NCBI GenBank assembly: GCA_013202205.1
Contig: JABMSB010000021.1
Span: 1 to 48,476 of the forward strand
Reading direction: 5' to 3'
DNA: 48,476 bases
Source of the DNA: Candidatus Omnitrophota bacterium
GTDB taxonomy: Bacteria > Omnitrophota > Gorgyraeia > JABMSB01
The notes under the pieces: model-generated
What the model was told of the DNA's origin: nothing
The model's input: the letters and a program-made list of their open reading frames with translations, nothing else
Databases searched by the model: none
Shown here: one piece after another, positions 11,978 to 48,476 of the stretch
Position numbering within the stretch: position 1 is the stretch's first letter
Layout: each line of letters begins with the position of its first letter
Made by a program: the position numbers and the translations under genes

Positions 11978-12028
11978 CTCATCCTCCTCATTTTAAGCCG
12001 CTTAAAAATATAAGACAGCCTATTGCAT

Positions 12029-12649: not shown

Positions 12650-12691
12650 ACAAACTCCTCCTCTCAACTACTCAGCCCCCCGGCCCCCATT

Positions 12692-14362: not shown

Positions 14363-14421
14363 TCGCACTCTCCTGGTTGTCTTTTCGCACACTGAAGTGT
14401 ACACTACTTATTTTTTTCGAT

Positions 14422-16169: not shown

Positions 16170-16233
16170 GGTAAGGATCCTTATCACTTATATTAATACT
16201 TTATAAAAATATTATAGGATAATTAGGCTTTAT

Positions 16234-19849: not shown

Positions 19850-20010
19850 TTATGCGGCACTGCCTAGCTGTTCCTGCCTATTACGCGCACTCTTGAAGCG
19901 CTCCCTCTCTGCCCTATCAGCATGCCGAAGCGGCCTGCGATCCATTGCGTTAGTCTCTGCAACAGGTGTGGCTTCAAGCCCTTGTCGCGCAGGCTTAAGC
20001 CTGCGCGACA
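19850..20010 (-). other. Giant protein: hydrophilic C-terminal tail
   Basis: After the last linker the chain ends in about 53 basic residues without a recognisable fold, including 'LSRRLKPARQG', 'RRPLRHADRAERERF' and a final GSAA. Part of it (SRRLKPARQ) is encoded by a perfect palindrome. Confidence 0.7.
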
Positions 20011-23000
20011 ACTCGGCCCCCTTGGGCGAGATCGCCCCCATAGAGAACGTCCCCATACCGGATGCAGACGCACTGATAATCGTCAAGAGCGCTGTACCGA
20101 TCGCCATGACGAACATCCCCAATCCCATGCGCCATTCCCCCCTTGGTGGCACATAACCGGGCACGGGCCTGCGGCGCTCTATATCCTGCTGCTTCCATGC
20201 CTCCATCTGCTCATCCCAATGATCATCAAGCCACTTTCTTGCCGTCTCCCGCGCCGCGGCAAGGCTCTGCAAGCGCGGATCTGTGTAACATGGCCTGTCT
20301 TCGGTCTTCAGCTTAACTACGACATTCGACCCCTTCTCTCCCATCACCTTCTGCCTTATCCCCTCCAATAATGAATTCATAGGAACCAAAATATCAAAAC
20401 TCCTGCCGGCATTTTGTGCTATCTGTTTGAAATATCTCGAAATGGTTGTGACAATCCCTTCTCCCCGCTTAAATGGGGTAACCCAAGCATGTGTTATTAT
20501 AATATCTTTTCCTGTATCCGTGACCGCGACATAACCTATATCCTTACCATCAATAATCACAGAATGATACCCTATGGACATCCCTTTATACCGTTTCGGC
20601 ACCAACTCTATCCACCGATTAGCGTCGCCTGCATTCTGCAGCATAACCGTCGAATCGGGAAGAATAGCCTCTTCGCGTGTCTTCTTCACCGCCCCACTGA
20701 AGATCATCGGTGCGCTGGCAAACGCGGCGCCGCCTATTAGCGCAAGGGCAAAGAGCAGCAACATCTTGCCACCTTGACCCCAACCAGCGCGTGGGGTGGT
20801 GCTTTTTGGATCGTCCCCTATTTCATCTGCTGTCTTCTTCATAAATTCATAAGCGGCGCTGTTGGGAAATTGGTCCAAAGCGGACTTCAAAATATAGGAA
20901 TGTGCCTGGGCGGGATAGGCGGCCAAAACCTGCCTTATCACACTCATCAGGCCTGCAATTATTTCCGCGCTAATAACTGGGTGTATTCCCCTTAGTTGTT
21001 CGAGCGGAATCCTCGCCCTGGGCCTCAAAAGCGACAAAAATGCCCAGGCCAGGTTTTCCGCTTGGGGCGCGAACCTGTCTTTGCCCCGCGCCTTAAGGAA
21101 GACCTGTTTCCTTTCATATAGCTCATCCTCAAGGTGGTCCAGGAAGATATTCGACGTCTCCGCCCTCTTATTACGTGGTGACTTAGTAAGTTTTCCAAAT
21201 AATTGAATTCCGGTAAAAGCCGGGAGGGCCGCGGGCGAGACCAATATCTGATATCCGTAAGCAACCGCCTCACTATAAAAGCGCAATAACAAACCTATAG
21301 CTATAATCTGCCTCTTATGGGCCAGGGGCTTCTTATAAAGATGGATAATCCGATCATATAGCTGTGCGCATTTAGTCACGCGGTGGGAAGCCTCATGTAC
21401 CCTGTTTATTAAAAATGAAGTGACAGGGAAATCCCTGGCTTCGCGATATAGCCTCTTATCATCCCCGCTTTTGCGTACAAAACCCTTGCAGTTAGCAACC
21501 GGGTGGTTATTTATGAGAAAGTTTAAAGAATCCGGGAATATACGTGATAACCCGTTAAGGATCCGGCTATTGTATTTAGGGGCTATCTCGGCACGCCTAA
21601 GGATGCGATTTGAATTTATCGCCGCGATCAGGGTTATTACGCTGCCTGCTATTATCCATCCACCGAGCAGCATGGAAAATTGGTTAAATATAATACCGCC
21701 TGCCAATATACCTAAAACGGCCGCGACAGATCCCTGGTGAGGCGTAGAATTTTCTTCTATCTCTTCTGCTGATCCCGGCCAATAGTCTCTCTCTATGGTA
21801 AACCTGCTTATCCCATCATCCCCCTTTTCCATTTTCACCTTCAGGATATGCAGCGGCCGGCTGAGCCTTCTTTCGTGATTCGAAATGCTCTCTGCGACCC
21901 GGAAGATACCTCTCATCTCAAAGACCATCACATGCATGCGGGAGTTGAAAAAGATATTGTAATTCTTCTCAAGAAAATAATAGAGATATTCTCCAAAACT
22001 CCTCTTTCTTTCCTTGAACCACCCGTAATCTTCTCTAACCAGATCGAGCAACGACTGGGTCTTTGCCTTTTCGAGTCTTGCTACTTCTACAGGCGACAGC
22101 TGCGTAACCGTCTCAACCGACCCCTTCCATTCATCCCCTTTTACAGTTGATTCACGACCGAGATCCACTCCCAAATCTATAGTGTCCCTCTCCAGACACT
22201 CAGCAAAAGATGTCTTGCCGGAACCGGAATCGCCATCGATAAGTATCAGCGTATCTTCTCCGGAAATCTCTCTTAAAAATCCTCTTATCCGGTCAAGCCC
22301 TCTCTTTTCTAATTTAATTTTCTTATCATAAAGATCTCTGCCTATCTCTACTTCAGTCTCTTCTTTAGTGTCCACAGCACGGCCATCTCGGCTATCCCCT
22401 GCTCTCTCTATTATCAGATCCGCGTTATCATTCAGCACTCTGAATATGGTCCTCAAATCGACCTCATCGTCAAGGTCTCTCCTGGACCACCCTATCTTTT
22501 CTCTGAGCGAGGCAAAACTTATGACCCTTTTCCCAAGGCCCTCTATATCATTGAATCGATCCAATATAACCCTTCGTTCCCCTTCTTCGGCAACTATTAT
22601 AATATCGGCCTGCTCTGCTATCTGGCGAGTTATCGGCTTAGAATGAAATTCCCGGCTCATACCTCCGATAACACTCTCAGCAACACCGATCCTGCGCGCT
22701 TCATCTATTATCGGAGGAATGAGGGTTTCTGATATATCGATCGATTGCGAGACTCCGGCCGAAACCACTTCAAATTTGTCGTCGATTCCCCTGTTCTGTA
22801 ATATTGTCTTGAGCAATATCTCCATTTGAGGGCCGCGGCACCTGTTCTTTTCACAGACTGCTACAAGGAGAGGTTTGGCAGATGTTGCATCGCGGCGTTT
22901 TCTGCTTTGTGAAGTTGCCCCGATCATCGCAAAAAGACCGCCACCGCCCATCAGAGCCAAAATAAATAACAAGAGCATCTTACCGCCCTGCCCTTTCCAG

Positions 23001-26000
23001 CCGGCGCGTTGGGTGGTGCTTTTTGGACCATTCCTTCTTTTATCGTCCTCGGGGTCCATCTCTTTGGTGCTGGCTAAAATTGGTTTGCCATCTCTCCCGC
23101 CCTCGGTTAAATAGACCGCTTCCGGCCTATTAAGTGAGTCTGTTGTTCTTTGTTTCAATTCATCCTGCTGTTGCGCATATTTATCACTGAGGCTTCTGGC
23201 AGCTTCGGATGTTAAGACCATAAAGTAAGGAACGTCTTTATATAAATCGGGTTTTGTGCCATGCACCTTATCATCCCACGGCCTAAATCCAATCTTGTGA
23301 TAGAAGGGTCTCGCATCATAACCCGATGCTACAACCATAGGCATGTCCGGATATTCACGGATAAGGCGTGTCACTACAGCAGTACCTCCGCCACGAATGC
23401 GTTCCGGATGGCCCAATTGATTCCACGGCGCGGCATCAAAGAACTGCAAGCGGAGGATTTGAGGACTTTCTTCACTCGACATCTTGTGACTATAAAAACT
23501 GTAAGTTATAAGTGTCTCAATACGCCTTCTTTCGCGATACCCTTCAGCAGTAACGACAATGAATCTCCTGCCAATCTCCTCCATCTCACGCTCAAGGTCT
23601 CCGGGCTTCCAGTGTCTATCATCATACTCATTCCACTCGTCTATCAAGCCAATATCATCTATCTTCAGTTCCTCAACCCTGCCCAGAAGCACCTCTCCCT
23701 CGGATGTGCCCTTTGTCAGATATATTGTCTCGGCACCATATTCGCGCCTCTTCTGTGTCGCGCCGCTGAATATAAACGGCATACCACCCAGAACCGCACC
23801 AACTAGTACAACTCCGATAAGCATTGGTATGATCTTTTTCCACATAACTTCACCGGACCTGCCATATCTAAATCTCGCAGTTCTAAATCCCTTGTGATGC
23901 AGAAAATGGGTCAGCGCCGCAGCCTTATACATAACACACGTTCTGAGGTATCCGATCAGCTTATAACCATTATCACCGGCATATCTTGTGAGGGTATTGA
24001 GAAGTGCCGTCCCAACACCCTTTCGCGTATATTCATCCTTGACATGTATGACAAACCTCAGTTTTGGATCCAAGTCACTATCCCATGCGCCAGATGTCGA
24101 CTCTTCATTTGTAAAATCGGAAACCCTATTTGCGATGACAACACCAACTGCTTCTTCTGATTCCTTCATAAATGCTGCAAAACAGATGCTTTTCGGACCC
24201 AACATAGAAATCCACGCAAGATTTTCTTTCTGCGCCTCCTTCACCATCTCGGGAGAATTCGCAAAATCGAACTGCTCTATATCTATGTCGAGAGAATCTT
24301 CTTTTCTCTTTTCAGCCTGTCTTGTCGCTAAAATATTTATGGATGGAAACCCTCCCATAAAAATTCCTAAAAGAGGCAACGCTATAAAAAGTAAAGAGAG
24401 CGCCAGAGAAAGAGGCTCAAGCAGGTGCTCTAACTGTCGCTGGAAGGAATTCCCCGGAAGTTTTTCAATAGGCTCCACCTTTTTGGACCACACCATATCC
24501 AGATGGTTGCCTCCCACCGGAAAACGCGGTGTCGGTTCAAGTTCGAATCCTGCGCGCATCGGCGCCTCTGTATAAACCCTGCGCACACCTTCGGTATTTG
24601 CCCGTGACCACCTGCCTATTGGATGGTATGAAGGTATCATGACCAGCTTATCCTCACCGGCATGGCGCGCTGCAACCTCAAGGCCTCCCAATAAGACCTC
24701 CGGCCAGTTTTCATACCCCCGCCTTATCCCGGAAGAGAGTTGCGCGTATACGTCGCTCTGGGCATTCTCTAAAATGCGGTCCTGCTCTAAGACATCCCTC
24801 CACTGCTCCTCAAGCCGCAGCATAGAACCTATGGCAAAACTGTAAGGGAAATGTTTCAGGAAGACCCTCTGCATAGCCCCGGATGAAGAAGTCGTCTCCT
24901 CGGGCTTTAAGAATAGCGCAAAACGTATCTTTGAGCTGTCCGTTGGGTCGATTGTGGTCTTATCGTGGAAGGACCCGAAGACACCATTAAACAGCCTTAT
25001 CCCGAAATCCCTCTTTATACCCTCTGCAGCACCTATCCTTTTTAATGTCTCGATGGTGGCCGCCAATTCTTTTGTCGTCTTAATACCTAACCCTGTCTGC
25101 GCTACAACAGCGCAGGTGACAAAGAGATCGCCGAAAGTCCCGGGATCCATGGTGCGATGTACATAAGGTGCATATTTCTCACATGCCATATCGAGAAGAG
25201 TTGCAGCTCTGGACGCAAACCCAGCAGGAAAATCATAATTGGGAAGCGAAAGCGCAAAGAGGAAGCGTTCCCTGTACCATCTCTTTGCAACATTAGGCCC
25301 GTGTTCTTTAAGAATATCCAAAAGCCTCTCCGCATGCTGCCATACAGTCACAGGGCTGACCTCATCGAGTATATGGACATCTTTCTTTACCATCTCAGAG
25401 CTATTGCTTCTTATGAGGCGTGCCAGCTCAACTGCACCCTGCATATCCACGCTGCCCGTCTTAGCCATCTGTATTTTGGCCGCCTTATCGAGCTCCCTGC
25501 TTTCATATATCGGGGTAATCTGTGGCACTTTTGGATCTTGAGAAATAATCTCACGCAATACCTCAAAAGGCATCGGTTCTTCAGCAAGGATATATTCTAC
25601 CTTTTCTCTGGAGCTCTTCTTGACAGCCTCTGCCACATAATCAATATGATCCCACGCTATAGGCTCGGCTATATTGCGGAATACTAAAATCGCCTCCTTC
25701 ACGCATGAAATTCCGTGCACATTTACGGCGCCAGCCAAAGGATAGATCGACTGCCAATGCACTCGCCCTTCTTCTTCTTTAAATATCCTGATAGCTTCTT
25801 TAACGTTATCAGCACCTGTCGTATATATCGCCCACATAAGATAGGGTAGGTCTTTCCACGAAATCGCGCCTTCTTCTTCCTGCATAAACTCAAATGCCTT
25901 ATTCATGCAGCCGATACCGCCCAGATTCAATTGCGCCGCGACTCCACCCAGCATAGAAGGATCTACCCCCTTCTTTAATAACCGGGCTGATTCAGTTACG

Positions 26001-29000
26001 CCTTTACGGACCACTGCCTGCTTTGCGCTGCCGGCATCCCTATCCGCCATATCATGCTCAAGAACAAAATCGACAACCCGCTCATCCAGCCCCGTTTGAG
26101 AAAGGACCGTCCGGTAATTCCTGCCTGCCTCCTGCAACCTCGTCGTAAGCCGCTCAAAGCTCGCCTGTGCAATCTGCCGTGATTGCGAATTTTTCTTGGT
26201 TATCTTGGTCGCGCCCACCACCAGCAGCGCCGGTGCGGCGGGAAAGAAACCGGAGACCATTACCCCAGATAAGAGAGCAAAGATCAAAACCGCTGTAGTA
26301 ATATGTGCCGATGTGAGGAAGGGCCATACCTTCTCACCCGTAGCCCTTATCGATTTCGCTATATCTTTTTTGTGTGACCTGAGCACCTCCGGATTAGTGC
26401 TCTTACCTTCAAAACTTAGGAATCTCAGTTTCGCGCCGCCACGGTTTATGATCTCTCTAAACTCACTCCACAATATCGGCCACTTATCTATGTTGTTTCT
26501 GATGACAGCGCCTTCCTTCGTCATTAAGATACCGGAGCTGTGATTGCGTTCCCGCATAACGAAGAGGCCATCCGGCAGAATCTCTGCCATGCCGGGCAAT
26601 GGATCCTCGACAGCCATCATATAGTCTGCCAGTCCCGATGGGTTATAGAGTTGAATACCAAATGCCCCAGGCTCTTCACTGAAGAGAGCCGCTTGCCTTG
26701 CCGCAAGATCCAGCTGATGAGTTTGAAGGTTCTCACCGCTGTAAATATGCGAAACCCCTATCCTCTCGGGAGAAACCACAACATTTCCTATGCAAGTGCC
26801 GAGTCCATTAATGGCCAGCATAAGACCGTCTGATAACAGGCTTACAGCCATAGCGCCTAGATTAAAAGGATGTACCAGAAGAGAATTTGTCCTTTCCTCT
26901 TTTGGCAATTCTTTCTTTAGGAGATCTCCATTAACACCTGAAGACACGTAGAGGGAAGCATCCGCCCCTTTCGCTATCCAATTATATGCGGCGACCTGTG
27001 TCGATATACTAATTGCCTTCTCAGCCTGTTCCAGTAAAACGGCCTTTGCTTCCAGCTCATCTTCCAGGGACGTCTCGGGACTTTCTCTGTTAACCCCAAC
27101 CGCCAGCACCATCGGTGCTGCAAATGCTACACCTAATAATGACAATGCAATAGGCAATATAATTGATAAAACCGGCCAAACTTTTGCCTTGACAGAGGAG
27201 GCCTTTTCTAATATACTGCCCTTCACCGAGGGCAACCATAAGGAGGCCTTCATGAAGGAAGATGCAAGAGGTAATGACATGTTTACTGCAACCGAAGTAG
27301 GCGCACTTATTGAGGAATTTAGAGGCGAATTTCGCGTATTTGGCGAAGATTTAAGAAGTGTAAAAAATAGCCTGAAGGCTATCAGAGAACAGGTAGCCAT
27401 AAATACCGAAAAGATCGAAATGAACCAACTCTTGATAATTCGGAACCAAGAGTTGATAACCGGAAACCGAGAATCGATAACCGAAAACCAGGGTTTGATA
27501 AACATTGTCTTGGAAAAGCTCGAATCGAAGGTCGACTGCACGGAATTCACAGCCCTGGAGAAGAAGGTCGGCTCTTTAGCCCACTGAGATTTTCGTTTCA
27601 CTCCCACCGCCAACACCGCCGGAGCGGCAAAGCCGGCGCACAATCCCAATATCGGCAGAGCAAAGAGTAAGAGCAGCTTACCACTCTGCTTCTTCCAGTC
27701 GCTATCTGGGGTGGTACTTTCTGGACCGTCCCCCTTACTTCCTTTACCTCCTTCGCTGAAGACGGGAATAAACGCCTTTAGTGCAAGAAGCGCACCCTGG
27801 TTTAGTACGGCTTCTTTACGGTGAATGTATTCAAGCCATTCGATACCTTTGTCTGAAATCCTATATTCTGCAACCGAGGAACCGCCTACCTTTCCCTTGG
27901 GCCGAGGCGCTACCCTGCGCTCGACTAAGTCAGACTCACGCGCATGGTTTAGCTGGTACTCCAGATTGGCACCTCTAAAAAGCTCTTTTTTCGTAAACCA
28001 TCTTCTATCTTGTCCGGCTTGTTGCGGCACCATGGAGCTGAGCATATCCAAACCGCTTTTTACAAACGCTAATGCAGAAACCTCCCCTGCTTCCTCCTCA
28101 ATTCTCTCCAGCTCCGGCAGACCATCCGCACAAGCCCTGCCTGGCTCCGTCAGAACCCACTCATTAGCCCTGCCTTTTACTTCTTGCCCACCCCTCAAGC
28201 ATATCAATCCTGCCTCGTGAAGCGCCCTCAAATCGCCGTCCAACTGCCTCTCTCTTAAATCTATATCCTCCTCGGCAGCAACATCCAGTAGTCCCTGTAA
28301 TCTGTACGGCTCGGATCCTGCCAAGCGGAGCTTTGTGATAATCCATCTCATCTTATGCTCGCGGTCGGGGAAGGGCTTTCTATCCTCAGGCGATTCCCCT
28401 TTCAGGGCATCTTTGCCCACCCTGGTGATAGAGTAATAATAAATGAGGCCTTCGTATTCCTTTGCCGTTTGTGACTTCATGATCACCATGCCATCACGCC
28501 TAAGAGAGGTCATATCGCGCGTAAACGTAACATCTGATAGGCCGGCGTACTCCGGCACCACCTCCATAATCTCATGAATCGTCAAGGGGCCTTTCTCCTG
28601 CAGCGCCCGCAGTATGCCAAGCCGTCTCTGTGCAATAATGCCTGGGCTGGAAGGCCCTCGCGGGGTTTGAGGTGAATCTTGCTCCTCATCATCCAACAGC
28701 CCCACATGCCTCATGCTGTCTATCATATCGCCCACTGAACCACGATCCTCCTCTTCCTGAAGCTCGCGCTCAATATCGGCTGATGACGTCAGATCCTCTT
28801 CATCCTCGGGTTCAGTAAAAAGTTCCTCCTCTATCATACGTTTCGGTTCCAGTATAACTTTGCTGTATCGCTCCTTTATAAGCGCCAACCTCCACTCTTT
28901 CATCTCCCGCCTCTCTCCTTCGCTCATCTGCCGCCCGCTGCTGTCATCTTTGCGGCGCGTCGCCCCCACCAGCACCGCCGGTACGGCGAATGTGGCGGGG

Positions 29001-32000
29001 ACCATTATGCCGCATAGTACCGCGATCAAAAACATTATACTCTTTGCACTTATTATCTTTCGCGCTGCTCTGACGGCCACAAGGAGGGCTGTCCGCGCGT
29101 AACTAACAGGTATGAGATCCTCTTTTGCCTCTACCTCATCACAGAACCCGCCATCTATTTCTCCATCATCTATTAATTTCTTAAGAAGGTGATGCCCTGG
29201 ATAACCGCTATCCCCAAAATGTTCGGCAAGCTCGGTCGCGGCCTTCCTTGCGCTGGCCATGGCATCTATATGATCCAAAAGTTTCTCCGGCGCCATCAAA
29301 ACTACCTGCCTGGTCTTGTAATTTATTATGGGCTTGAGATGGCTGCCCTCTCCTCTATTTTTTTGCGAAGCCACGCCAAGCATCGGTAGAGCAAAACCAC
29401 CACCGAATATCACACCCACAGCAATCACACCTACAAATAGAAGCGCCAGTCCCTTGATCTGGTATAACTTCTTGGGTGACGGCTCGATTATACGGTCACC
29501 ATCTATCTCTATCCCCTCGGGTAAGAGACCTGCTGTCTCCATCTTACCGATGGCTTCCTCGGTTATATCTACATTACAGAAAGGAGCTTCCCGTGTAAGG
29601 AACCAATCGAAAACGTGAGGGTATTTATCTCTGAATGATAGAAGGAGGCCTTCTGCGACTTCCTTTCTATGCCTCAGTAACTCACTTATACCGTGGTGTG
29701 TGTTTTCGTGGGCTACAAGGGAAGGATCTAATGGTATCTTGGGGTTGAATACCGAAATCTCAGCTCCCTTTAAGGATGTATGATCTAATGCTCCCGCGCC
29801 CGCTGATGCCTTGATAAGCAGGTTGCGCAGGTCAACAAAATGGGGACTTAAACATAACCTAAATGCGGCAAATTGGTGCGCCAGGACTCCGTTCTCTTTG
29901 GCCAAATCCAATACGTGAGCTGCACCTATACTTCGGGAAACTTCCAATTCATCTTGCGGCTTCTCCGGCATAAACCTTAGCGACAACTTTCTTCTGCCCT
30001 GCACGATAGACTGCACGATATATGAAAGCAGCTCATTGAGGGTATTCATAAGCGCCACACCAACATCACCTCTTTGAGATGCATCCCTGATACGTCCATA
30101 AAGAAGGTTTCTTCGGTCGCTCGATACAGCTATCTCTCCCCGCGCACGCGCATGAGTCGAGATAACATCATAATCGAGCAATCTCTCCATGATAAAACCT
30201 ATATTCTCAACGGTTTCTCTGTCGTCTGGCGCAATATCGATATAGAGGGCATTCAGGATATGTATATTGGCGATCTTATGATCAGGCGAATAACCGACTA
30301 TCAGGGTCCTCTTCCCCGAGAATGATCCGATCCATCCGCCATAGGTTATAAGAAAATATTCATTCTCATCGTCCGGGAAATCGAGAGCGCGCACCTCCTC
30401 TATATATGGCCTCTCATTCGGGAAGGTTACAGCCCACCTGAAATAATCCTCGGGTTCTCTTCCTTTTAAGGCGTGTGTCAAGAGCGCTCCCCTGACCGCC
30501 TCACCCCTTCTTGATGCCCGCTCCACCAGAGCATCTACATCGAATGACTGCTCCTTGCGCGTCGCACCACTCATCATCGGTACGCCAAAACCACCGAACA
30601 TAATCCCCGCAACCGGCAGGGCGATAAGAATTATGCTTTTGGTCAATGTTTGCCAGGTTGGGCCTGCTGATAAATTATCCCTGGAAAAGAGCAAAGGATG
30701 CGATACTAAATAAGATCTTGGTATTGCCGCAAAACCTTCCCCCTTGTCGATCTCCTCCTTTGACATGACCTTGGCGTCTATCAACCCTGAAACATCTATC
30801 CCCGTACCCGACATAACGCTATTAAATTCATCCGCACACACGCGGTTAAGCGTGTCCAATTGCTCTCGCACACCCGCCTTTTCCCCGTCGGACTCTACTT
30901 CTATGAGAATGTCTATATCGGAAGCGGGGCCTATGTCATCATCCGAACCTGCCGTGCTTCCGAAGAGCCATATACGGGTTATGCCACTGGAATGAGCTGG
31001 GAGACCTTCCGCTATGCGCTTGGCAATCTCGTATCTGACCCTGCTGTGAACCGGCTTGTCGAAAGACCTCAATCTCTTTGCGACCTCATCTTCGCCCGTC
31101 AGTCTCAGCGCTGAAGATGTACTCCTCACGGCCTCTCTCCATATATCCTCTTCTCTTCTCGCCTCTATCGCCAGCACCGCCGGAGCGGCAAAGCCGGCGC
31201 ACAATCCCAACACCGGCAGGGCGATGAAGATGATCATCTTAGCCAATCCGGTATTTTGTAGAATGGTGCGCCAGGTGCGGTTCCTGGGTACATTGAGAAG
31301 GTGTCTTTCTTGAGGACCGGGCATACCGATATTACCACTATCTGCCATATGGACACCTTCCTGCAGAAAACCTATTCCATCACGCAGGTCATCGATATCC
31401 TCTCTTTGGATTCTGCCGGTATAAGGCTCTCCTCCATCGAGGAAGTGTCTGAAGAATCCCTCATGGCGTTCATTGAAAGATCCTATAAGACTCTCACCCC
31501 ATTTAATCTCAAAGAATCTGCGATCCTTGGCTCTCTGGAAATGGTGATGCAGTATTTCATGGTCAAAGTACCATTCTCCTATCTCAAACCTTGGATTATA
31601 TACCGAGAGGGTGATGCCATACTTATGTAGGGTCGTCAAAGCTGTAGCTGCTACAGAAGTCTTGAACATCAGATCACATATCCAGATAAAGTGCGGGCTC
31701 ACCTGTGCTATGCCCTCTGTAAGGTGCTCTGCAACTATGCTGCTCCTTGAGGCATACCCCATAATGTCCTGTGGTTGGCCAAAGCTAAAGTATGCCTCTA
31801 CCCTGTCTTCAGGCTCTGCTTCGTTTCCATTGGCAGATATGGTAGATCTTCCCTGTATTATGCTTTCGACAATACGTGCCATCAATTCATCGAGAACATC
31901 TATGGGATCTTCCAACTTGTAGGTTCTGACCTTCTTGTATTTACTCGGGTCTCTCGGTGCAGCCAACACAGTCTCATCGGTTATAAGGTCATATGCCAAT

Positions 32001-35000
32001 ATCTTCTCTGCCCCGGATATGTCTAGTGCCATCTCGAAGGAATCCTCATCATCTGGTGCAATGCGTCCATAAAGATTTTTGTAGAACTGGACATATATCC
32101 TGCTTATCTCCTTTTGGGGAGAATACGCGACTATCAATCTTGCCACAACCTTCTTGTGTTTATTCATAACCACTACAAGGAAGTGCTCTTCTCTGTTTCC
32201 GTGAGTACCCAGGGGCCATGCTGTAAAATTATCGTGGTTCATCAATAGATGCTTGAGATGGCGCATGGGTACCTCCTCGCGGAATCTACGGCGCATCAGT
32301 TCTTTTCGTCTATATTCACCGTGGGCCAGTGATAAATCTACCAGTGTCGGTGTATCTACCCATATCTCTTTCTTGGAGGATCTCTTTCTTGTGCCCTTTA
32401 TCGCCCCACTCCACATAGTCGGCATAACTCCGAAGGCCATACCTAAGGCAGGTAATGCAATCATAAATATCACCGATGCCACTCTGGCGGCCATGGCAAC
32501 TTTTGAGACCTTCGCGACTCTCTGACGCTTAGGTGCCGGATCACCACGCAGTTCTCTATAATACTCTCGCACTTCGCTGCCGCGCACAAAACCTGCACTG
32601 ACATTATTGCGGCCCCGTGTGGTGTAGAGCGTCACACCGGATAGCTTACCCTTGTTCATATAACCACCTGCTGATTTTGTCTTGACTCCGAATAACTTGC
32701 CGATCCTATCTGCCTCGTAAAGACCTGAATCGACCACATCATCTAATACTATTCTATTTCGGCGAACATCATCTATCCTCTGCAAGAAACCCTTATCCCC
32801 CTTGGTGGGCCTGCGTAGATAGACAGTCTTATTTAATTTAAAGTACGGGTGTGTCGGCATAAGATCGGTATACGGCCAATCGACTTCTCTTGCGGCTTGT
32901 AAGAGAAGTGCGGGAGTAGCTCCCCTTACTTTATATTTAGTCTTTGCCAGTTTGGCTGCTTCCTCAAGTGGAATAGCCCCATCCTTGCGCTGTTCGGCAT
33001 CGGTCCTATCTACCATTGCCTTAAGTGCCTCAAGACCCTCCCTGACATAATAAACCTCACCGTCCAATTTGACCCAGAGGCGTTTTCCGTCTACATCATT
33101 CTTCGATAACCTTTTACATTCACCACGCATATATTCGGCCTGATTAGGTGTCACCTCCAAAATACCTGCAGCCGCATTCACCGCTACAATATCGATCAGT
33201 TCTTTAAGCCTTAATTCTATCACCAGCGATAATGCAGCCTCTCTTGTGAGCTGGGTTACATTACTGCGGCCATAGATGTCCCTTTGGATATAATCACCAG
33301 CTTTTAGCTTCTTCTGGCGCTTCTTTATGTCCTTTCTTCTCCTTATAGATACATTCCACATTTTATTACCCGTTAATCGCATAAGTTGAGTAGCACTGTA
33401 CCTCTCAGCCCTCATCTCCTGACCTGTCCTGGCGATCACCTCAACGTATCTGCCGTCGAGTTTGCCATTCTCATCTGTCAGGACATAACCTCTTTCGATA
33501 AGATTGGCTATCACAGATATGGGGACTGCCGTCTCGGGCACGACAGTACCTATTTCATCCATCGAATATGGCCTCGTTGGAATTACCTCCGCTATAGGTT
33601 TATCTATCTCGACTTCCCCTTCAGTACCAATCTCATCCCATCCGCCCGATATGCAGACGAAATTGGCCTTCTTTCTATCCCAACGCCCCCTATATAGAAC
33701 CCTCTCAGCTTCCTGGCTACCTGGTATATCACTTTTAAGTAATATAGCCCTGATGCATAATTTTCCTTTTTCATCACCCTCCTCACCCATATATGGAACT
33801 ACGCGCACCCTTCTGTCACACAACTCCTTACTCTGGAGTATCGTAACCTGATTATATTTTCTGTCTCTTACGCAATAGGAGAATAGCGTTATCTTGCCTA
33901 TGCTATTTGTAATATAATATACAACACCTGATTCACCAAACTTAGCCAGCAAGGCGTTAATGCCCGTCTTACCAGAGGAGGACATGCAAACATCCCTTAG
34001 TTCATCTCGAAATTCATCTACGAGGGCTTTCTCAACTGCTGGATCTGCGGGTTCGGCCTCTGTCGATGGCTCATCATTATTCTGATCTTCTTCATCTTTC
34101 TTATCTTCATCATCTATCTCAGCGGGCTTAGGTGCAGGACCGGTAGTAACCTTTACCCCATTGGTCACCTTCTCAACCAGTGCTTCGGTCTCATCTGTCA
34201 ATTCATCAGCAACAACTCCTCCATCATCAACTGTGCTCGTTTGTACTGCTGCAATAACCTTGCTCTCGTCTACCTCTCCTTTTGGATCGATTACCAGCAC
34301 TGCAGTGTCTTGTGCAGCATCAATTCCTGCTGTAGCAGGTTCTGGATCATCCGGATCTGTCTCTCCTTTTATCACCTTCCTGTGACGCGATTCTATTAGC
34401 GCTCTCCTTATTGCCTTCATCTCTTCTAATTCCTTATCACTAAGTGATTTCTTCCCCACCGCCCCACTCACCATAAATGGCGCTGTTCCCAGCGTAAGGC
34501 CAAAGATCAACCCAATAAGCAAAGTTGCGATAGTGGCAGATCCGGCAATGATATCTCCTGCCCTTTTTGTCTTTGAGAACCAAAACTCTCTTACGCGCCA
34601 ATTAAGAACATGCTCTCCGGCCTCCTTCCAATTCCAGAATTGCACGGGTAGTTCAGTAGATCTATCGACAAGATTAAATTCTTTTACCGCTCTAAAGAGG
34701 GAGTCCCAATCCTCTATTATATCTAGATATTCCATCTTCATGGGCATCTTGAGTTTATCCAAAACACATATATATGCGGAGCCGCTATCTGATAATAGCC
34801 TATGCCACTCCTCTATCTGGGGAGGCTTTACTACCTTTCTTATCATAGCACGCACCCTATCATGTAACCGTCGTTCGGACATCTTATCAGGATATCTTTC
34901 CTGCAACGCTTTGAGGATATAATGCAGAAGAGAATTTTCCAAATCGTAATATGTCCTTTCAGATATTATTAAATCTGCAAAACCAGAAGGAAAGACTCTC

Positions 35001-38000
35001 TTTTTGCGGTTAGTGATCACATCTATAGTTGAACGAACAGCATCTTTAAATTCCATAGATCCCTGCTCAACAGTGTGCATGTGCGCAATTATCTCTTCCG
35101 CAAGCCATGAGACATCTGCTCTTACTAAATATGTCTTTCTTCTCATATCTTCCGGCAACCTACCCCAGGCATATCGCAACGCATTTGGATTTATATCCAC
35201 TAATACGATATGATCAAATCTATGAAGAACGCTTTGGTCTATTGAGCCAGACCCGAGCACAAGAGCAACTCCCGTCTCTTCTAAATTATCCATGATGGTC
35301 GATATGTTTCTATTTCTAATTTCTGGGTCACTTTCATACATAACTTGATCATAAATATCAAAATATTCTGTAAACCTACTATCCTTTGACTCACCGGCAA
35401 AATCTAATATTTGACCATTGGATGGATTATCAAAAAGATCTTTCCATACATCTGAATCACTTTCGTCCTGCACTACCGCCCCACTCACCATAAACGGCGC
35501 CGCACCCAAAAGAAGGCCCATTAGTGACAATGCTGAAATAAGCATGAGTCCCAGAAGCTGGATATTTACCCATCCTAATACCTGACTATCTCCACTATGC
35601 TCCAGATGGTCAAACCATCCTGTATTATCTATGATAATATCGGGCTGTTTCGTTACATAATCCGGCCCTTCCTTCGCCCTCATGCCGGAGTTTACCGGCG
35701 CATCCCCACCCTCAAACATCCAATCCTCATCAGGACCGTGCCTGGCCATAAGCCGAAAACGCCTTGTATGATCATCCGCTATAATCACCTTGATGAAAAG
35801 GTCCAGGTTCTCTGTATCTTCGGGCAGCATATTTCGAACAACCTCTACAAATAAGACATCTGCCTCCGGATTGGACCGCTGTGCATCAGAAAATCTATAT
35901 TCATCCCACAGGTTTTCTTTAACCTTCTCTTGAAGAACAACAGACACACGCCTACCCAGCTCGCCTTCAACCCACTCACACAACATCTTTATAATGGTAG
36001 ATTTTCCGACACCCGAATCGCCCTTAAATAGTACCGTAACGGGCCTATCATGATCCTTAACCAGCTCATTCCTTATGCGCTCCTTGGCCAGCTCAAGGCC
36101 CTCTTCCAGCTCATATACATCCTTGCCGCCCAATCTGGATCTCTTGACCGTTCCGCTCACTATAAATGGCATGGTGCCGAGTACCACCCCTAAAAGGGGT
36201 AATACAACAACAGCGATTGAGGTAAGTGCCTTGGCACCAGATACAGATAACTTTGTCTTGCCCTTACCCGCATCATCTGAATCTGTGCTTTTTTGTGAAG
36301 TGGCACCGAGAAATGGCATTATGGCGCCGCCTGTTAATAGAATACCGATAATAGCTAATGTAATTAAGGTGACTCCTTTGGGTAGGGCAAACTGCCATGG
36401 GTGGTATGTTGGGACTATGGCGATCTCTTCTGCTGCGCGGAGATTTACATCATGCTTTAGCCATATATTGCTGTCTATCTCTACTATGAAATCACCGCTA
36501 ATACTGCCTGTCTCGGAGATTATCTTTCCAAGTTCGGGGTAATCTTGAACCAATCTTCTTGCAATATTGACCGGGCCGTCACGATCATATTCTATGACGG
36601 TCTCACCGCCTGTAAACCGAGCAAGCTGCGGCGGCAGCATAACCTTTATCTTGGGCCTTTCTTTTGGATCGACGCGCGGATGGATATTTGTAGCTACGCC
36701 AAGAGGGTGGTGTTTTCTGTAATTTCTGTCACTCGGAGACTGTACAATCCATGCGCCATCGATGAATTGCCTCTTGATCGGCACAAATGGATTACCGGAG
36801 GAAAAGAGGTCAACTATCCAGCCGTCGTATGCCTCGACCCAATAGTGTACATATGATGTACCGTTGGATGATCTGTAATATGCCTTATACACCTCGGCAG
36901 GCACATCGTAAGAGCTCCTAAGCAGATTTCGTAGTACGAATGCCGATTCGAAGCATACCACATCGCCTATTTTCTCCCGAACACTCATCGCCGCCTCTGT
37001 CAATACACTTCTCTTATATACCTCAGCTTCATCGAAATGCCGATATCTATCAGATCGTATCCTCTGGGTCAATAAGATGATAAGGCCAAATGCGGCTATT
37101 CCGCCTATGATAGGAATGATGATCATCCCTTTCGGCACATGGAACCCCATAAAAATCTCAGCAACCAGCCCTACCAACGCACCCCCTGCCAATAGATGTG
37201 TAAATCTCGTCCTCTCATGCATATCTTCTTGTATCGGACTATCTGTATCGGTAGGCTCCTTGCGCATACTGGTTTTGGTGGTACCACTCATGAATAAGAT
37301 ATTGCCGAATGCCAGACCTGAAACTATACCGATTATAGGTAGAATGATTAGTGATAAACTGCGGAGGGATTGCCACCATGGGCGGGGAGAGGTTCGATTT
37401 AATGCCACACCCTTAGGTGATCCTCTATTTGCGTGTGCCCTTCCTTTCCACTTGCCCAGCTTAAACCACTTTATCATGACAATGGTATATATGATAACCG
37501 ACATCAGCGTACCTATCCATAGGCCCTCAAGGCCTATTCCCATCCCTTTGAAGGTATATCCGGCCAATGAGAATGTACCCAACGCCATGACTGTGGATAG
37601 TACCAGCTTCAATGCAACATTGGTCGTCACGGAGATCCTGAGCGGTGTCTTCATGTCGCGCGCTCCCCATAATGCACTACACAGGACATACGAAGTACCC
37701 CATAATAGCAATATAGGCACCATAAAGCGCAGGTATGTGGCGCCTATGCCTATTACCTCTGGGTTGATAGTGAATAGTCCCACTATTTGTGGGGCGAGGA
37801 TAAATATAGGTACGGCTATTAATATATAGGAAGCCAGATATAGCGCTGTGGTCCGCCATCCCATATTCTCTGCTTCATCCATATCTCCTGCTCCAACTTT
37901 CTGGCCGACCAATGTATTGGCAGATGCACCAAATGCTATACTCGGTATTAACATAAAGAGGCCGAACCTCTTACAAATACCATAAGCCGCCAATGCAAGT

Positions 38001-41000
38001 GGTCCAAATGTATTGACGAGCCTCATAAAGACCATCTCAGTAGCAAGCTCTATATCGGCCTGCGCAAATCTATAGAACCCTAAACCCCTGCTGAGTGGTT
38101 TCATCAACTCAGGATCGAACTTAAGATCATCTCCATTTAGGCCGATAGCGTCGGACTTATTCTTAAATAATATATACAACCCTAATACCAGATCTATACA
38201 TCTACCCAGTGTTATAGATACCGCAACACCCACCAACCCCAAACCGAAGAACGGCAGGCCCAGTCCTGTAATACCAAAGAGCCCGATTCCCCATCCGAAT
38301 ATCAAGATCGGTGTCATCAAGGTAGTGAATGTTGAGAATACGATCGCTATCTTCATCGGCCATTTCGAATCCCCGGCACCCGTTAAAGCGCTCCTGACCG
38401 GCCATGATACGCTGTTTATTCCCATCCCTATGGCGAGAACTTTAAGGAAGGGCGTGCCCAGCTTCAAGACCTCAGGGCTTGCCCCAAAGAACTTAAGCAT
38501 GGTCCCGCCAAAGATCCAGGTAAGTATCCCTACAGCTACACCTATTATCGTACCAAGTATTATGGTTTGGACGATAGTGCTCCTCGCCCTTTCATGATCT
38601 TCTGCACCTATAAAATTTGCTACCTGTGACTGTGCGGCTGTATTGAGGCCTATGGACAACCCCATGGCAAAGAGCATTATAGTAGTCGCCATAAATCCTG
38701 CACCGATTGCATGGTAACCCAATATCCCCACAAAGAATGTCTGGATTATCCTCGCCATATGCATCGAGCCCGTCCATGCAAAGATCGGTCCGGTCAGCTT
38801 CCAGATCTTCGCCAGCACCTTCGCCGGTATAACCTTAAATAGTGACCGTTTCACTTTGTCCCAACCCATTGCGAATAAAGGTGTTGCAACATGAACCTTG
38901 CCATTTTTCGCTTCAGGCTGACCTGACTCGGCTGCTCCTGAAATATGTACAAGTTCATCTTGCATCTTTTTGGGTAGCAATGGCTTGCGTGAAGGTGAAA
39001 CGGTCACTTCTTGGCCCCAGAGCTTATCGAATTCTGCGAGGTTTATCCTGGCTGCTACCTCTTCCTGGTATATCTCACCCAGCTCCGGTGAAATGGCACA
39101 CAACTGCCCATAATGCGTTCTCGTCGTTACTGTCTCAAATCCCTCCATCCGGTCTCTTATTGATGCTAAATTATCATCCAAATCACCAAAGTCAAATAAG
39201 GAAACTCTTCTTTGGCCATCAACCTCTACTACACTGAAGTTGTGATCGAATCCAAGACTATTTGAAAGCTTAAGCGGCCACAACATCCTTACCGCATCCG
39301 CCGCCTGTCTCAATAACCTTCTCGCCTCCCGGAGATCTCCTGTCTTATATAACCTGCCTAATTCATCAAAGAGCATAACCGGATCTTTTGCCTGAATGAA
39401 AGCTGTCGGAATCGTTTCATATTCTGCAAAGAAGAATAACCACCGCCGCCTTATCGTCAGGTCATTTACCATAATAGCTAGGGTATATATACCTAACCCC
39501 CTTACTTGATTATCATAAATATTAAACCTTCTTAAATATTCTTCCTCATTGATCGGCCCCTGATCTATCTTAGAACGCATAATTCGCTGCTCTCTGCTTT
39601 CAGCAAATATTAGGCCGAACTTAATGATCGTCTCCAATGCCCACTTTGGCAGCCTTACAAATAAAGACTGCCTCTGCTCTGCTGTAAAGATATTACGGAC
39701 TCCTGCTGTATCTGTATCCTCGGGCCTGGCAAAAGTCCTCTTCCCACCCATCATTCTATCCATAAATTCGTGGAACTTTTCTCTAAGGAAGACCTTAACC
39801 TGCCCTACTCTTACATCCAATGCCGGTCCAGCCGTAAAATAGTTTATCAGGTGCGCATCCTTTATTACAATAGCGCTATCTCTATGCGAATATACCTTAG
39901 CCTGGCACCCTCTACCCATCTCACTGAAGACGAATCTATCAACCTCACCCTCGTAGACTTCCTGCAGCTCATCTACTGTGGCTGGATATCTCCTTTTTGC
40001 TGTGGTTGATCTCTTCGTCATTGCGGTTAACCTCTTTACAAAACCACCACCTACGGTCTCTTTCCCGCTCTTCCAGGAGACATAAATATTCGTAAACATA
40101 ATAATAGCACCGGCGGCCACAACACGCGCAGCCCTCTTCAGTGCCTCTCCAACGAAGAGAAGCGGCAGCAGGTTCATATAAATGAAGTTGGGTATGACTA
40201 TCCACCACCTATCGGTTACACCCTCCAATGTCTTCAGCAGCCTTTGTGAACTGCTATGCATAACCCGTACATCTTCGTAGTGCCTATGCGCCTCCTCGTT
40301 TCCTTCTTTCTTATGCCTTATCCATGCTGCCCATTTTTCAAATAGGCCCGGCACCCAAATAGCGTAAAGGAGTGATATCTGCAGCGCTCCAGAGGAGAAA
40401 ACGATAACCGATCTGACTAAATTTGTAAGGGTAAAGATGGCTTCAGTCTGTGGGAAGAATTGCCCAGTGCCACCTATCACCAGGGTGCTGACTATGCCTA
40501 TCGCTGGTCCAATAACCAATAATATAGCTAATGATCGTGCCACCCAGAGCTTCCACGGATACCTTTCACCACCTAAAAGTTTTTTACCGAGTGTATCGCC
40601 TACTGCAAGCAGGATTGCTGCCATTATGATGGCATTTATCGGCTTTGAATCGCCGGCGCATATTGCCGCCACCATATGAGGAAGATGTGCCCAGTACATG
40701 AATACCGTTGCCGCACCAACTAACCCTATCATACCCCAGGTAAATGGTGACTTAAGCGAAATGAAGCTTCTCTTTGCGCGCTCCTCAACTGGAATCTTTC
40801 TCTTTATGATTATATTTCTGATGAGCCATGCCACAAATGGTATCTGCACAAGACCAATAGCCATTGCCGGCGACATTCCTGCCAAGACCGCCACCAAGGT
40901 CGCTACCCCACCCACCACCGCAGCAATCACCAGGCCACGCCCCAAGGAACGAGGATCCGTTTCCTTCCTAGTTATCCTATAAATAAATATGGGGTCATCT

Positions 41001-44000
41001 CTATATACAATCTCGCAATTGAGGATATCGGCATTTGCCTCAACGAGATCCCTTACTAACCTCGTTGCTTTAACACTTACGATGGCCACTCCCCCTTCTT
41101 TTAAGTGCTTAGGCAGCTCGTTAAAAAATCCTGTTATCACCTTGCCGCCTACATCGTAATAGTCCTTATCGGGATCATCATCGTCGAGAATAAAATCTTC
41201 GGCTACAGGAGGCTGCGCGTTGAAGCCTATAAGATCAAATTCGCCTAGCCCTTTTAATCCATCATTAACAAAAGCTGTTATCCTATCAGACAATCCGGCT
41301 TGCGCAGCTGTAACAACTGTATTGTCTATAGACATCTCCTGACTATCTACCGCTGTAACATTGGCGCCTTCTTCTGCCATGCCAACCGAATCATATCCAT
41401 TACCGCAACCAACGATGCAAACTTCATCACCTTCTTTGACTTCCTCCTTCAGTTTTGCTAAGGTGTCCCAGCTGGACTGATCTGGCGCAAATACCTCGGG
41501 AAATGCACACATCCTCGTTAGCGACTTAAGCCCCCTAACCTCTCCCCATATGGTCTCTTCGGGTATCTCGATTTCATTAGCTAAGCGTGGTGCAACATGA
41601 GGCGTTTTGGTCTCTTCTTTTAGTCCAAATAAGAGTACAGGGAAATAGAGTATCGCGCCAACGGCTATAGCCGGTATAGATACATGCGTCGTCAATATGA
41701 AGAAATTCCAGATAACCGCCGGCACCAACAAGGCCTTAGCCCACCCCTTCATTACCAAAGTCTTATCCGGATTTGGTGCCCTGTTTGCCATAAAGTATAC
41801 GTAGATTACGGACGGAGGCTCCAGCATGCTCACCAGGGTATTCTGCATTGTAAAGCTAACCGGCAATGAGAAGATGATCGTCAGACCTAATGTCCAATAT
41901 GGTAGGATAGATAAGAGGGCGTATCTAAGCTGCGGCAGTTTTTTGCGCAGCATAGTTTTAAATATAGACTTATCCTGATGCAATTCTTCATCGGCTTCTG
42001 TGAATCTCTCGATAATGGTATGCGTGAAGAACATTATAAAGAGTGAGACCAAGGCCGTAGTCATCTGATCTGCAATCGCCAAAAATATCGGGTGCGGCAG
42101 GCTTCCCCATAATACATATGTGCATGGCCAGAACCAACCAAAGAGAACTGCGGTCAATGTGAATGCCGCCACTACCTTCCATTTATTGAAATCTGAAAGC
42201 TTGGGCCTGAAATTTCCTTCTCTGCGCAGATTTATAAGCTGGCCCAGGAATTCCCCGACGGTCATAAAAGATACAAAACTAAGCCATACCCTTAGTGGCC
42301 CTTCCACAATAACTGCTCTAAGCCCGAAGAAGAGGGCTGTCTCAACTATAGTTATCCCGGCCAGAAGCTTCAGCGATATAATCTTTGGCCTTTTGTTATT
42401 GACCGGCTTCTCACTCTCTGCACCCTTTTGGGTCGTCGCCAGTATCGATGGCATGAAGGATAGACCTGATGCAATACCCATCAATAGCCCTATCGCAGGT
42501 ATAGCCATAAACAATAAGACTTTCTGTGCAGCGATCATGCGCCTTAAGAGATCGCCGGCGTTTTTATCACCTTGATCTGTGCGTTCTTTGAGGATGGTGG
42601 CTGTGGTTTGGGAGGATTGCTTAAGGGCACCATCTATTTCCTCTTTAGTATATGGTCTTTTTTCTACTTCGGCGGTGACTTTTCTGGGATCATTTGTATG
42701 AGCAGGGAAACCCATAGCGATCAGCGAAGGTTGTGCGGCTGGAAGAGTTGTACGTATCTTATATCCCTGGCTTGAAAATTTGCGCATCACCCAAGCCATA
42801 AGGGTCCTTGCGCCATTTAATTTGTAAAGGGTACTATATCCAACTGCATAACCCTTTCTAAACCAGTAACTGGAAAGGGTGTTGTGAGATATACTCGCCC
42901 ATAATCTGATGTCGCAGCTTTTGATAGCATCATCTATAAAAGCTACTATTGCCGATTCCACTACCTCAACATGACCTTTATCAGAGACCCTAAGGGCCAT
43001 AAATAATTCGCGCCGTTGTTGGAACCCGGGGAAACTAACATTTGGCATTATTAAGATCTTTACTTTATTGAGCTGCAATTCTTTTACTAGATTTTCAGCA
43101 AAATAGGGTATAGCTCTTGCATGAACCAGGGTCTTAATTCGATCAGTATTCGCTATTTCTTGCGCTTTCTCACCTTCCGGTGTTAAAACCCCTCTCTCTT
43201 GGTGTCTCTTTTTGAGATCGCGTTCAAAATTATCCATAAGCTCTATTGTTGTATCATATTCTATCCTCCATTGTGACAGGCTCCTCAGTATTTCAACCCA
43301 GACGTCCTCTCCCAATTCAGACATCACAACCGGCATAAGAACCTCTGTGGCCTGATTCTCAGGTCTGCCTGTATGGTCTATTCTTTGGACTACGAGTTCA
43401 TCCCCTGCTGCAAATTGATCTTTTACTAGCTCTGGATCCAGCTCTTCTGATCCATCTCCCTGCTTCGTTGCCAATATGCTTGGTGTAAATAGCATGCCCG
43501 CTGAAGCAAAGATTATCCCGAGCATGGGCAGGGCGATGAAACACATTGCCCTCCATGCAAACCTACCTAACCCTTGCTGCGCCATCCAGGCCTTGACCTT
43601 GTTGCCTGCCTTCTCAAAATCCTCTTTTCTTGTTATCTCATAGAGGGTTATCTGCTCTTTTTCCTTGACCTCGCGCATTGCTTGGCTGGCTCTAAACTTA
43701 CCTGTCGGTGCCTCGAGCTGCCAAGTGCGTGTTATGATAAATCCATTGCGTTTGATTAGCTCCCTTAAGAAATTTTTATCTCTATCTCCTGTTAAAACTG
43801 AGAAGTTTGAATAGACCAGATATATCCTGCCACCGGGGTTGAGATGCTTATCCGCATCATCGAAGTATTTGGTTATCGCATAATCTTCCTCATCATATAC
43901 CCCCTCATCGAGCTGGCGCCTTGGCGCACCCTTGAGCCAGGGCGGGTTACCTATTATTATGTCTGCGGTAGCTCCCTCCGGATATACATCGGCCCTTACG

Positions 44001-47000
44001 ACCTTCATGCGGTCACTTAAACCGAAACGCTCCGCATTCAATGTGGCGCATCTAACGGGATCGAGGAATTTATCGGTTGAAAGGACACTCGTAGCGCCAC
44101 CTATAGCAGCCAAAATACCTATAACCCCTGTGCCCGTAAATGGCTCAATCACCGATTTACCCTTGAAATCTACATGGGCGGCTATGAGATTGATGATGCT
44201 GAAGTGCGTTGGTAAAAATACATGGTAAAGGGGTATAATATCGCCGCGTAGCGCTCTTACATAGAGGCCTTTCTCTTCATTTTCAGCGGCATTTGCTATG
44301 GCAATGACGGCTTTTACGGGTATAAAGAAGTTTCTTCCTGCCAGATTGGAATAGTCCCCGTCTATCTTTCTGACTAAATCTCGTAGTGGCGGGGCGTTCG
44401 TAACCTGCAGGAGGTCATCCCCATTTGCTACGACTACCAGCCGTGATGTAATAGCCCTGTAGGCCTCCTTCTCGGCAAAGCTCCTATCAAGGGGGTTCTT
44501 TATCCGATACATCTTACTCCAGTCTATCAGGTCCCATGCCACCCTGCCGATCTGTCCATTGACCAGCTCAATCATCCTGAAGTCGCCGGTTATGACTACA
44601 AAATTTCCTCCTCGTATCTCTTTGAGAAACGGCTGTGCCCCGCTTCCGACACCGATAACTTGAGGAGGACTTGACTTGGGAATCAGGGCATTCTCATAGC
44701 ATGCAGGTATTACAACATCACCATACCGCGGCATATTTAAGGTGACCTCAGAATCGGTCCTCATCCGCTGCATCACCATGGCAAATTCATCTCTCTCTAG
44801 ATCCTCCACATCTCCTACAAGAGTGGCCTCTTCTGCATCTCGAATTACATCATCACCAAAATACTTCCTTCCTACGATCTTTGAGCCCACGGGTATGTTG
44901 GATAGAATATGGTGTATCCCCCGTACACCCTTAACCCATATCCAGCCACCCGGGCTCATCTTCAAAGCACCATCTGCCCATACATCCCCCCTGGTGGTAA
45001 TAACGAACTCATCAAAAAATACCGCAGACAATGGGAGTGCCCTACCCTGGTCACCCATACCATCGTAAGAATCCCCCGCACCCAGCCTCATCGCCTCTTC
45101 TATGTCAGGCAATCCATCTCTGTCCTTATCTATAAAACCATCCCCGGGATCGACCAAAACCACCTCAAAGCATCTCCCCCTTGGTGTATCGGCCATCCTG
45201 AATGCTATAGTTGCCGGGAAATATTCCCTCTGATATATGTTCTCAACCATATAGCCGAGATACATGCTTAATACCATGCGTTCATCGACCCCGATCTCCG
45301 GAGCCTCCAACTCAGCTATGTGATCTCTGATTAAGATGGTACATTCAGAAAGGTCCATCTGGTCTTCTTTTAACTGGATAACGGTAAAACCTATATCTTT
45401 AAGGCTCTCTGCCGTCACAACCCTATTCATCTCTGAGTGGTGAAGCGCATACCAGTGTTTATCGATCAATAAAGATGCATCCGGTTTTCTTGGAGAAGTA
45501 GCACCGACATAGAAGCCAATCATAGGTGCGACTGACATAAAACCACCTAGTGTGAGTATGGACGCTGCTATGATAAGCAGGATTGGGCTTAGTTGATCGC
45601 TGGGGCCTACGCGCCACTCACCGCTATCTTCGTCATCGTCTTCTCCATCCCAGTCATCACTTGCGTCATCACCATCTTCGCCTTTCTCCAACCCCTTTAT
45701 GATGTAGAAACCTTCTCTGTAGCGCAGCTTGCCGCCTCGTTCCCTAATAGCCTCATTTACCGCAGCCCTCCCAAACCGCTCAACGAACATCTCGAAGGTC
45801 TTCGGTGCCATGTGGCACTCCGGATCTTCTTCCAAGAGATTGTCAAGCACATCACTTGCTGTCTCGCCAATATCCTCATCCTCTATGAGAGCCCGTATTG
45901 CCCCCTCTTCATCGTTAAGCGTAATCCTGTCTTGAGCAAACTCTATCGATTCAGTCAGTTCCCGGGGACCACCCATGCAGTTTCTGGCGGCAAGATCGAG
46001 TATCCCATATAATCGGCCTCCTATATAAGATCCATCCCCGATTATCCCTATCAATCTCATTGCCGCGGCGCGTTCAATTGGGGAATGGTCGCCCTGGAAT
46101 ATGGTGATGAGGTTTCCTATCGCGTTATTCCACAACACATCATTCACATCAGGGATTATATCGAGATTTATGACCTGCCCTTTTACCTCAAGAGAATGAA
46201 TCAATTGATTTAGTGCTATGGCTGCCACAACACGTACTTCTCTGTTCTTTGAGTCTTTGGCCCTGTCACCTAATGCGCACATAAGGGGCACTATAGCCCG
46301 AAGGTCACCGGTGCGTCTTAATTCGAATGCCGCATGTATCTTTTCATCCGGGTTACCTGCAATAAGAATATTGACGGTATCTCTGATCCTGCCATCCAGT
46401 TCTGAGAAATCTATAAAATCATAATCCGATTGGTGCCTACCACCAGGCTGGGTGGCGAGCATCGTTGCGGGCATAAACGAGGCCCCCAAGATAGAGGGCA
46501 GCATCGCGTTGCGTTCAACTTCTATACCTTGCAGGGCTTCCCACATCATCTCCAAGAAATCGCAAATTGCGTCTATGTTCAAGGCCATTAAGACAACAAG
46601 CATAATCGCAATTATTGTAATAACTACTTCATAGCGGGCTATGCCTACTTGATTTCTGCGCTGCGGTCCCCTGCGGCTGCGCGAGAGGGGCGTGCGGCGA
46701 CCGCTCCTGTCTATCACCTCTCCCTTAGCTGCGCGCCTGAATACCATGACAGTGGGATAACCATCGGAATCCTTACTTGCTTCCGGTTCCTCAACCTTTA
46801 TATCTTCTGCTCTGCGCAGCTTATCGAACTTATATCCTTTGCCTCCATATGCGATAAATCTCCCTCCTGGCTTAAGCTGCTGTAAAACCTTATCTTCAAG
46901 GAGTGAGGGGTCCCTTGTGCCGTGCTGGAAGTAGGTCAATATGTCAAATTTGGAGAGATCCTTATCATCATCTAAATAATTCCCTTGCTCAAGCTGGATC

Positions 47001-48476: not shown

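Follow-up and report, generated by a model that had tools for sequence, protein, structure and literature searches.

A giant open frame in the window, a stretch of 48,476 nucleotides from a Candidatus Omnitrophota bacterium, encodes a chain of unrelated protein modules separated by 23 copies of one hydrophobic peptide element. The window appears to hold part of a bacterial polyprotein gene in which the elements would act as species-matched recognition sites, most likely proteolytic; this reading, in which cleavage is deduced from sequence, stands at about even chances. The frame continues for 28.6 kb without a stop in the standard code, exceeding the length (>20 kb) that marks a giant open reading frame (ORF) of Omnitrophota, and its 5′ end is truncated by the end of the contig (48475). 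Helix-turn-helix (HTH) repeats lie at this cut end and may have caused the break in the assembly.

19850..48475, minus strand: giant frame of 9,541 aa, truncated 5′ by the end of the contig
47846..48475, minus strand: four tandem HTH repeats of ~56 aa each at the cut 5′ end, from Pfam HTH families and sequence

The window's genome comprises 1.5 Mb and belongs to the same class as MAG K_DeepCast_250m_m2_027, also from Ca. Omnitrophota. A second contig of this genome, C4 (11.1 kb; 11,100 bases), is open throughout (3,699 aa) and adds eight copies of the element, so a continuous frame across many units is present on both contigs (9,541 aa in the window, 3,699 aa on C4). C4 represents either a further part of the window's giant gene or a second gene, the gap between the two being unbridged.

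The window elements follow a consensus consisting of a basic residue, a hydrophobic run in which LPxxG is frequent, a short stretch with Phe and Pro, Ala or Gly with Thr/Ala or the variant SGA, and finally Lys or Arg. An initial annotation of the window had reported about 23 copies of a single linker, and all 23 lie where it had put them. Its count of nine LPxLGxxxG motifs is correct for the looser LPxxG within the hydrophobic run, the strict form being present in five elements (L8, L11, L12, L16 and L19). Elements L3 to L23 were located in the frame and with the leave-one-out profile described below; L1 and L2 are given with their leave-one-out scores.

47357..47473, minus strand: L1 (LPLLGIVLAGAGFAAPAVLATK), 31.9 bits
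46430..46537, minus strand: L2, weak, FMPATMLATQ, 8.1 bits
45479..45598, minus strand: L3
43445..43555, minus strand: L4, LPMLG...FTPSILATK
42413..42523, minus strand: L5, IPAIG...FMPSILATTQK
37256..37366, minus strand: L6
36281..36379, minus strand: L7, MPFLGATSQK
36125..36232, minus strand: L8, LPLLGVVLG...SGTVKR
35453..35566, minus strand: L9
34436..34543, minus strand: L10
32375..32488, minus strand: L11
31145..31246, minus strand: L12
30545..30646, minus strand: L13
29348..29455, minus strand: L14
28940..29050, minus strand: L15
27581..27685, minus strand: L16
27077..27181, minus strand: L17
26186..26302, minus strand: L18, weak
24305..24412, minus strand: L19
23741..23839, minus strand: L20
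22889..22987, minus strand: L21
20672..20773, minus strand: L22
20012..20125, minus strand: L23, weak, last

In the leave-one-out procedure, a profile is built without a given element and then scores that element together with 86 other membrane-type segments from the same region. The 23 elements average 25 bits against 2.3 bits for the 86 controls (AUC 0.99), and all except the weak copies L2, L18 and L23 (20/23) outscore every control. Random membrane segments taken through the same procedure give an AUC of 0.47-0.63. The alignment of the elements is therefore far superior to that of random membrane helices, a comparison that had been set beforehand as the test of the family, and this scoring rules out chance or ordinary membrane helices as their source. 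The C4 elements did not contribute to the 23-element profile, which scores them at 7 to 37 bits. Across the whole 1.5-Mb genome, matches to the profile are confined to the window frame (C3) and C4, with the next place at E = 1.2. No clear match in this genome is found at a protein N-terminus, all being inside giant frames, in agreement with the annotation's view that these are not ordinary terminal signal peptides. A PDB sequence search with the profile gave no match.

Where pairs of window elements agree in a residue, the codon is identical in 673 of 2,006 cases, against 548 expected from codon usage. A few pairs are recent copies, such as L12 and L16, which use the same codon at 16 of 19 shared residues; L21 and L22 have 15 non-Met residues in common and four identical codons. 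As residues are kept and synonymous codons are near random in most pairs, the peptide is the selected feature, and its conservation across the elements makes it very likely that the giant frame is translated through them.

The sequences between the elements encode a diverse set of modules. Pfam recognizes HTH repeats, methyltransferases, a MATE transporter, a nucleotidyltransferase, GNATs, and a low-molecular-weight phosphatase in the window frame. The annotation's description of the intervals as whole known domains applies to some of them. Many others lack a Pfam match and may conceivably be decaying, several domains lie within L5-L6 (~1,700 aa), L7-L8 consists of a 16-aa spacer, and L16-L17 holds an antisense gene. 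Only M11 and M13 are similar among 33 modules, so the units are not repeats of one protein.

43802..44161, minus strand: methyltransferase module, MTS (PF05175), by Pfam
37466..38758 (approximate span), minus strand: complete MATE transporter, TIGR00797 profile 10-396 of 396, by family model
31247..32374, minus strand: module with HEILHH (HExxH), no family, paralogue of the 29456..30544 module, from sequence
30794..31021, minus strand: nucleotidyltransferase domain PF01909 in the L12-L13 module, by Pfam
29456..30544, minus strand: module with HENTHH (HExxH), no family, 28% identical to the 31247..32374 module, from sequence
27252..27587, plus strand: complete gene antisense between L16 and L17, ATG at 27252, TGA stop, Shine-Dalgarno AAGGAGG at 27240-27246
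23915..24238, minus strand: GNAT acetyltransferase PF00583 between L19 and L20, by Pfam
22577..22861, minus strand: low-molecular-weight phosphatase PF01451 with the C-x5-R motif present, by Pfam

The modules of C4 include a kinase-like domain, a GNAT, a complete sigma-70 factor (C4 frame, L037, aa 2025-2300), and a module that opens with a putative lipoprotein signal. This lipoprotein-type sequence (RRGILQILAAVFITVFAFIGC), recognized by reading, stands directly behind an element, where it would be sensible only if a new N-terminus arises there. Four HExxH motifs are found in the window and C4 frames (window frame aa 5639, 6256, and 9027; L037 aa 2743), against 0.3 by shuffling. The four modules match no peptidase family in Pfam and are possible candidates for in-chain metalloproteases. 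The HExxH paralogous modules were sought in 291 genomes of the class and none were found, and an AlphaFold model of an HExxH module has a mean pLDDT of 34.5, too low for use. Adenylation, ketosynthase, or carrier modules of NRPS/PKS type are absent from the Pfam results.

The annotation had also proposed that the linkers mark module borders, and the positions of the elements sustain this. Pfam domains contain none of the 31 elements of the window and C4 (rough p 0.04, given the small part covered), and the same is true of 31 elements in a second genome, G033 (rough p 0.001), giving 0/62 for both genomes together. Shine-Dalgarno-plus-start combinations are not in excess behind the elements (25/57 vs a share of about 0.5 at random places), which indicates that the modules are produced solely within the chain. 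An operon whose genes are separate and simply have no stops is rejected on the same ground.

The L16-L17 interval is an exception. Its giant-frame reading is nonsense, with a codon usage that is nearly the lowest of 236 windows (one is lower), whereas the plus-strand reading is normal. Homologues of the antisense gene are found in G053 (43% over 97 aa) and G013, where they are stand-alone. This part of the chain, at least, is consequently not a working module, and the backwards gene implies that whole genes can enter the chain as modules in both orientations. By chance, an antisense stretch as long as this one lacks a stop in 0-6% of windows, depending on the frame; the giant frame across the gene has been either kept open or open by chance.

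A second system of this kind is encoded by the giant gene of the MAG named above (G033), which belongs to a different family from the window's organism. Its 8,346-aa frame is the best foreign match of the window profile among 384 genomes of the class, at E = 5e-4, a value that counts for one genome and is not significant over the whole 384-genome search. The layout is the same as in the window, with a separator of its own, GCFFGLPVMAMT. A profile of this separator finds 27 copies, all in G033 open frames of 8,346, 4,681, and 3,236 aa, and nothing better than E = 0.25 elsewhere in that genome. Searched as a DNA pattern, it has 26 occurrences in G033 and no more than one in any of the 383 other genomes, and its longer form is found only in the G033 MAG among 84,980 species genomes, a set from which records very near the window were possibly left out. 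It is absent from G059, of the same genus as G033. The annotation's expectation of clusters in other giant frames is hence realized in the form of a different separator, the window profile itself hardly reaching other species.

Codon identity among 26 G033 separator copies is near expectation in most columns and raised in some. A DNA-level recombination site, as in an integron-like cassette array, finds no support in either the window or G033, where codons are near random. The G033 separators contain ~12 hydrophobic residues, and their flanks are polar and Ser-rich, as would be fitting for exposed spacers.

The modules of G033 are easier to identify than those of the window. GlgB occupies a whole interval between two separators, retains its catalytic motifs (GLRVDAV, AEES, and SHDEVVHGK), and is the only copy found in this 91%-complete genome. 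Carbamate kinase matches its family model over 1-309/309, tryptophanase over 5-461/463, and acyl-CoA dehydrogenase nearly end to end; judged by their sequences, all four are full-length enzymes with intact catalytic residues. Further modules include HPr, a PtsI-like protein, PRPP synthetase, sigma-54 activators, and a histidine phosphatase, among others. Adenosine deaminase is apparently split across the ends of contigs C48 and C32, suggesting that the G033 frame continues across both. A lipoprotein-type signal sequence (ILSVILILVTFVFNIAGCASN) is also seen deep within a giant frame of this genome (G033:C13 aa 3544-3575).

Comparisons of the elements between species involve short profiles. The longer G033 elements (MPFFGMT type) align to the window profile with an hhalign probability of 86%, and the other comparisons yield 23-34%. 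A core hexapeptide is found 11 times in the window and 20 times in G033, nearly always in elements, against about one by shuffling; it was defined after both sets had been seen and is therefore descriptive. A third giant frame, G031, has elements resembling plain signal peptides, and their ends (LPLLGILLAQDVFAA, NNAWAG; AWA/FAA ends) look like textbook signal-peptidase sites. Their profile relation to the window elements is weak (hhalign 34%), yet LPLLGI is common to both. The carbamate kinase module of G033 (C48 aa 1089-1432) is 64% identical to one in G031 (aa 8616-8937), from a different family. HTH-like stretches recur in the G031 frame, as in the window (47846-48475). In a fourth giant frame, G196, the enzyme modules comprise a C39 peptidase, a glycosyltransferase, and PtsI, and motif and k-mer checks found no homogeneous separator. 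C39 and Rce1-like modules occur in giant frames other than the window's.

A mechanism can be proposed from these features. Unrelated, largely complete proteins strung in one frame would be translated as a single chain. The element would act as a peptide separator at the borders, made of a hydrophobic run, a helix breaker and small residues with the core P-x-hydrophobic-(x)-A/G-A/T, and finally Lys/Arg. The separator would be read by a processing protease, probably one of signal-peptidase type, which would free the modules. Each species would have its particular version of the separator, common to all its copies; a motif that is homogeneous within a species and different between species suggests a reader acting in trans. 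That a protease cuts at the separators is the most likely case, and its identity is likewise put forward on grounds of likeness, the small-residue end after Pro resembling a signal-peptidase site. Lys/Arg directly behind the small residues is unusual for such a site and counts against a signal peptidase. More broadly, it is tentatively suggested that some Omnitrophota produce a sizeable set of everyday proteins of metabolism and regulation, single-copy enzymes and a sigma factor among them, in the form of a single processed polyprotein of >13,000 residues, with separator and reader coevolving in each lineage.

The nearest analogue would be the plastid polyproteins of Euglena (RbcS, LHC), which share the layout of mature proteins in one frame, from which a conserved short linker decapeptide is excised (PMC4938576). 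The E. longa linker NMAAMTGEKD resembles the G033 separator VMAMTESKED, probably by chance. The Euglena system is eukaryotic, has units that are repeats of one protein, and bears N-terminal plastid targeting, whereas the window is bacterial, its units are unrelated, and cutting is only deduced. Viral polyproteins with internal signal-peptidase sites likewise place a hydrophobic stretch and then a small-residue site at module borders; in tomato ringspot virus, a site of this kind lies behind a 14-residue hydrophobic stretch (PMC5010249). No viral genes were seen in the modules scanned. A viral origin was rejected, the G033 separator pattern being absent from viral contigs. Type I signal peptides appear, from the alignment, to share the hydrophobic run, a Pro 5-7 residues before Ala, and small residues at the end. 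The window elements differ from them in being chain-internal, never N-terminal in this genome, and followed by Lys/Arg.

The main rival to a processed polyprotein is an uncut, membrane-tethered or self-assembling chain, in which the elements are membrane anchors or docking stickers that hold enzymes together like beads on a string, at the membrane or in an assembly. With 24-38 uncharged residues and basic residues on both sides, the window elements are long enough for membrane segments, those of G031 are followed by a second segment of membrane length, and many transmembrane helices are stressed in published Omnitrophota giant proteins (PMC10066038). However, the separators of G033 (GCFFGLPVMAMT) are too short to span a membrane, which makes it less likely that the function common to all elements is a membrane one. 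Moreover, a single crossing per element in the same orientation would not leave consecutive soluble modules all on one side, and the lipoprotein-type signal behind a C4 element would have no use. An uncut chain is a fairly unlikely reading.

In a gene-capture array, the elements would be traces of recombination that inserts cassettes in frame, and the peptide would have no role. This would suit the unrelated nature of the modules, among them a complete backwards gene with its own ribosome-binding site exactly between two elements, as well as the recent copying seen in L12/L16 and the copies in G033 of one module together with its element. Such capture could account for the arrival of modules, but not for the retention of a peptide whose synonymous positions are near random in most pairs, the DNA not being the conserved entity; as a full explanation it is improbable. 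It is also improbable that the elements are internal signal peptides moving modules singly across the inner membrane in a flavivirus-like manner, with secreted enzymes attacking host or prey: the h-region, Pro (helix breaker), and A-x-A-like end with small residues at -3/-1 (visible in the alignment by eye only), the net flank charge (summing to +36 on the N-side vs +9 behind), the AWA/FAA ends of G031, and the presumed predatory or parasitic habit of Omnitrophota (PMC10066038) would fit, but the cargo is of cytoplasmic type (sigma-70, sigma-54 activators, HPr, PtsI, GlgB, carbamate kinase) and includes a MATE inner-membrane transporter, most elements have no stop-transfer segment between them, and those of G033 are short.

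Giant frames of Omnitrophota are already known and have been interpreted as adhesins or weapons rich in membrane helices (PMC10066038; PMC12057145). Those of Ca. Velamenicoccus archaeovorus and others share with the window the phylum, a length of >20 kb, and many hydrophobic segments (PMC10066038). The published frames are assigned to surface adhesion, with few known domains, or to cell-wall degradation, in contrast to the metabolic and regulatory modules of the window, and the hydrophobic segments of the window frame are largely one repeated separator. The literature searched makes no mention of a repeated separator or polyprotein in these genes, in keeping with the annotation's statement that the layout has no described precedent; a 2023 preprint on giant genes, outside that search, may contain part of it.

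If cutting at the separators were shown, the system would be categorically new for bacteria. A processed polyprotein would be a strategy of gene expression not known in bacteria, and a very large one, whose separator varies from lineage to lineage. The giant genes of Omnitrophota remain puzzling, and separators allow them to be parsed into modules; the frames parsed here yield ordinary enzymes rather than surface weapons or adhesins. Separators also make the choice between one giant protein and many small ones testable in existing metaproteomes, and biotechnology might draw new protease sites from them.

Downstream of the giant gene, window positions 10129-16187 encode two GH113 glycoside hydrolases and ABC transporter permeases, along with a solute-binding protein and a LacI regulator; the locus reads as one for mannan-type sugars.
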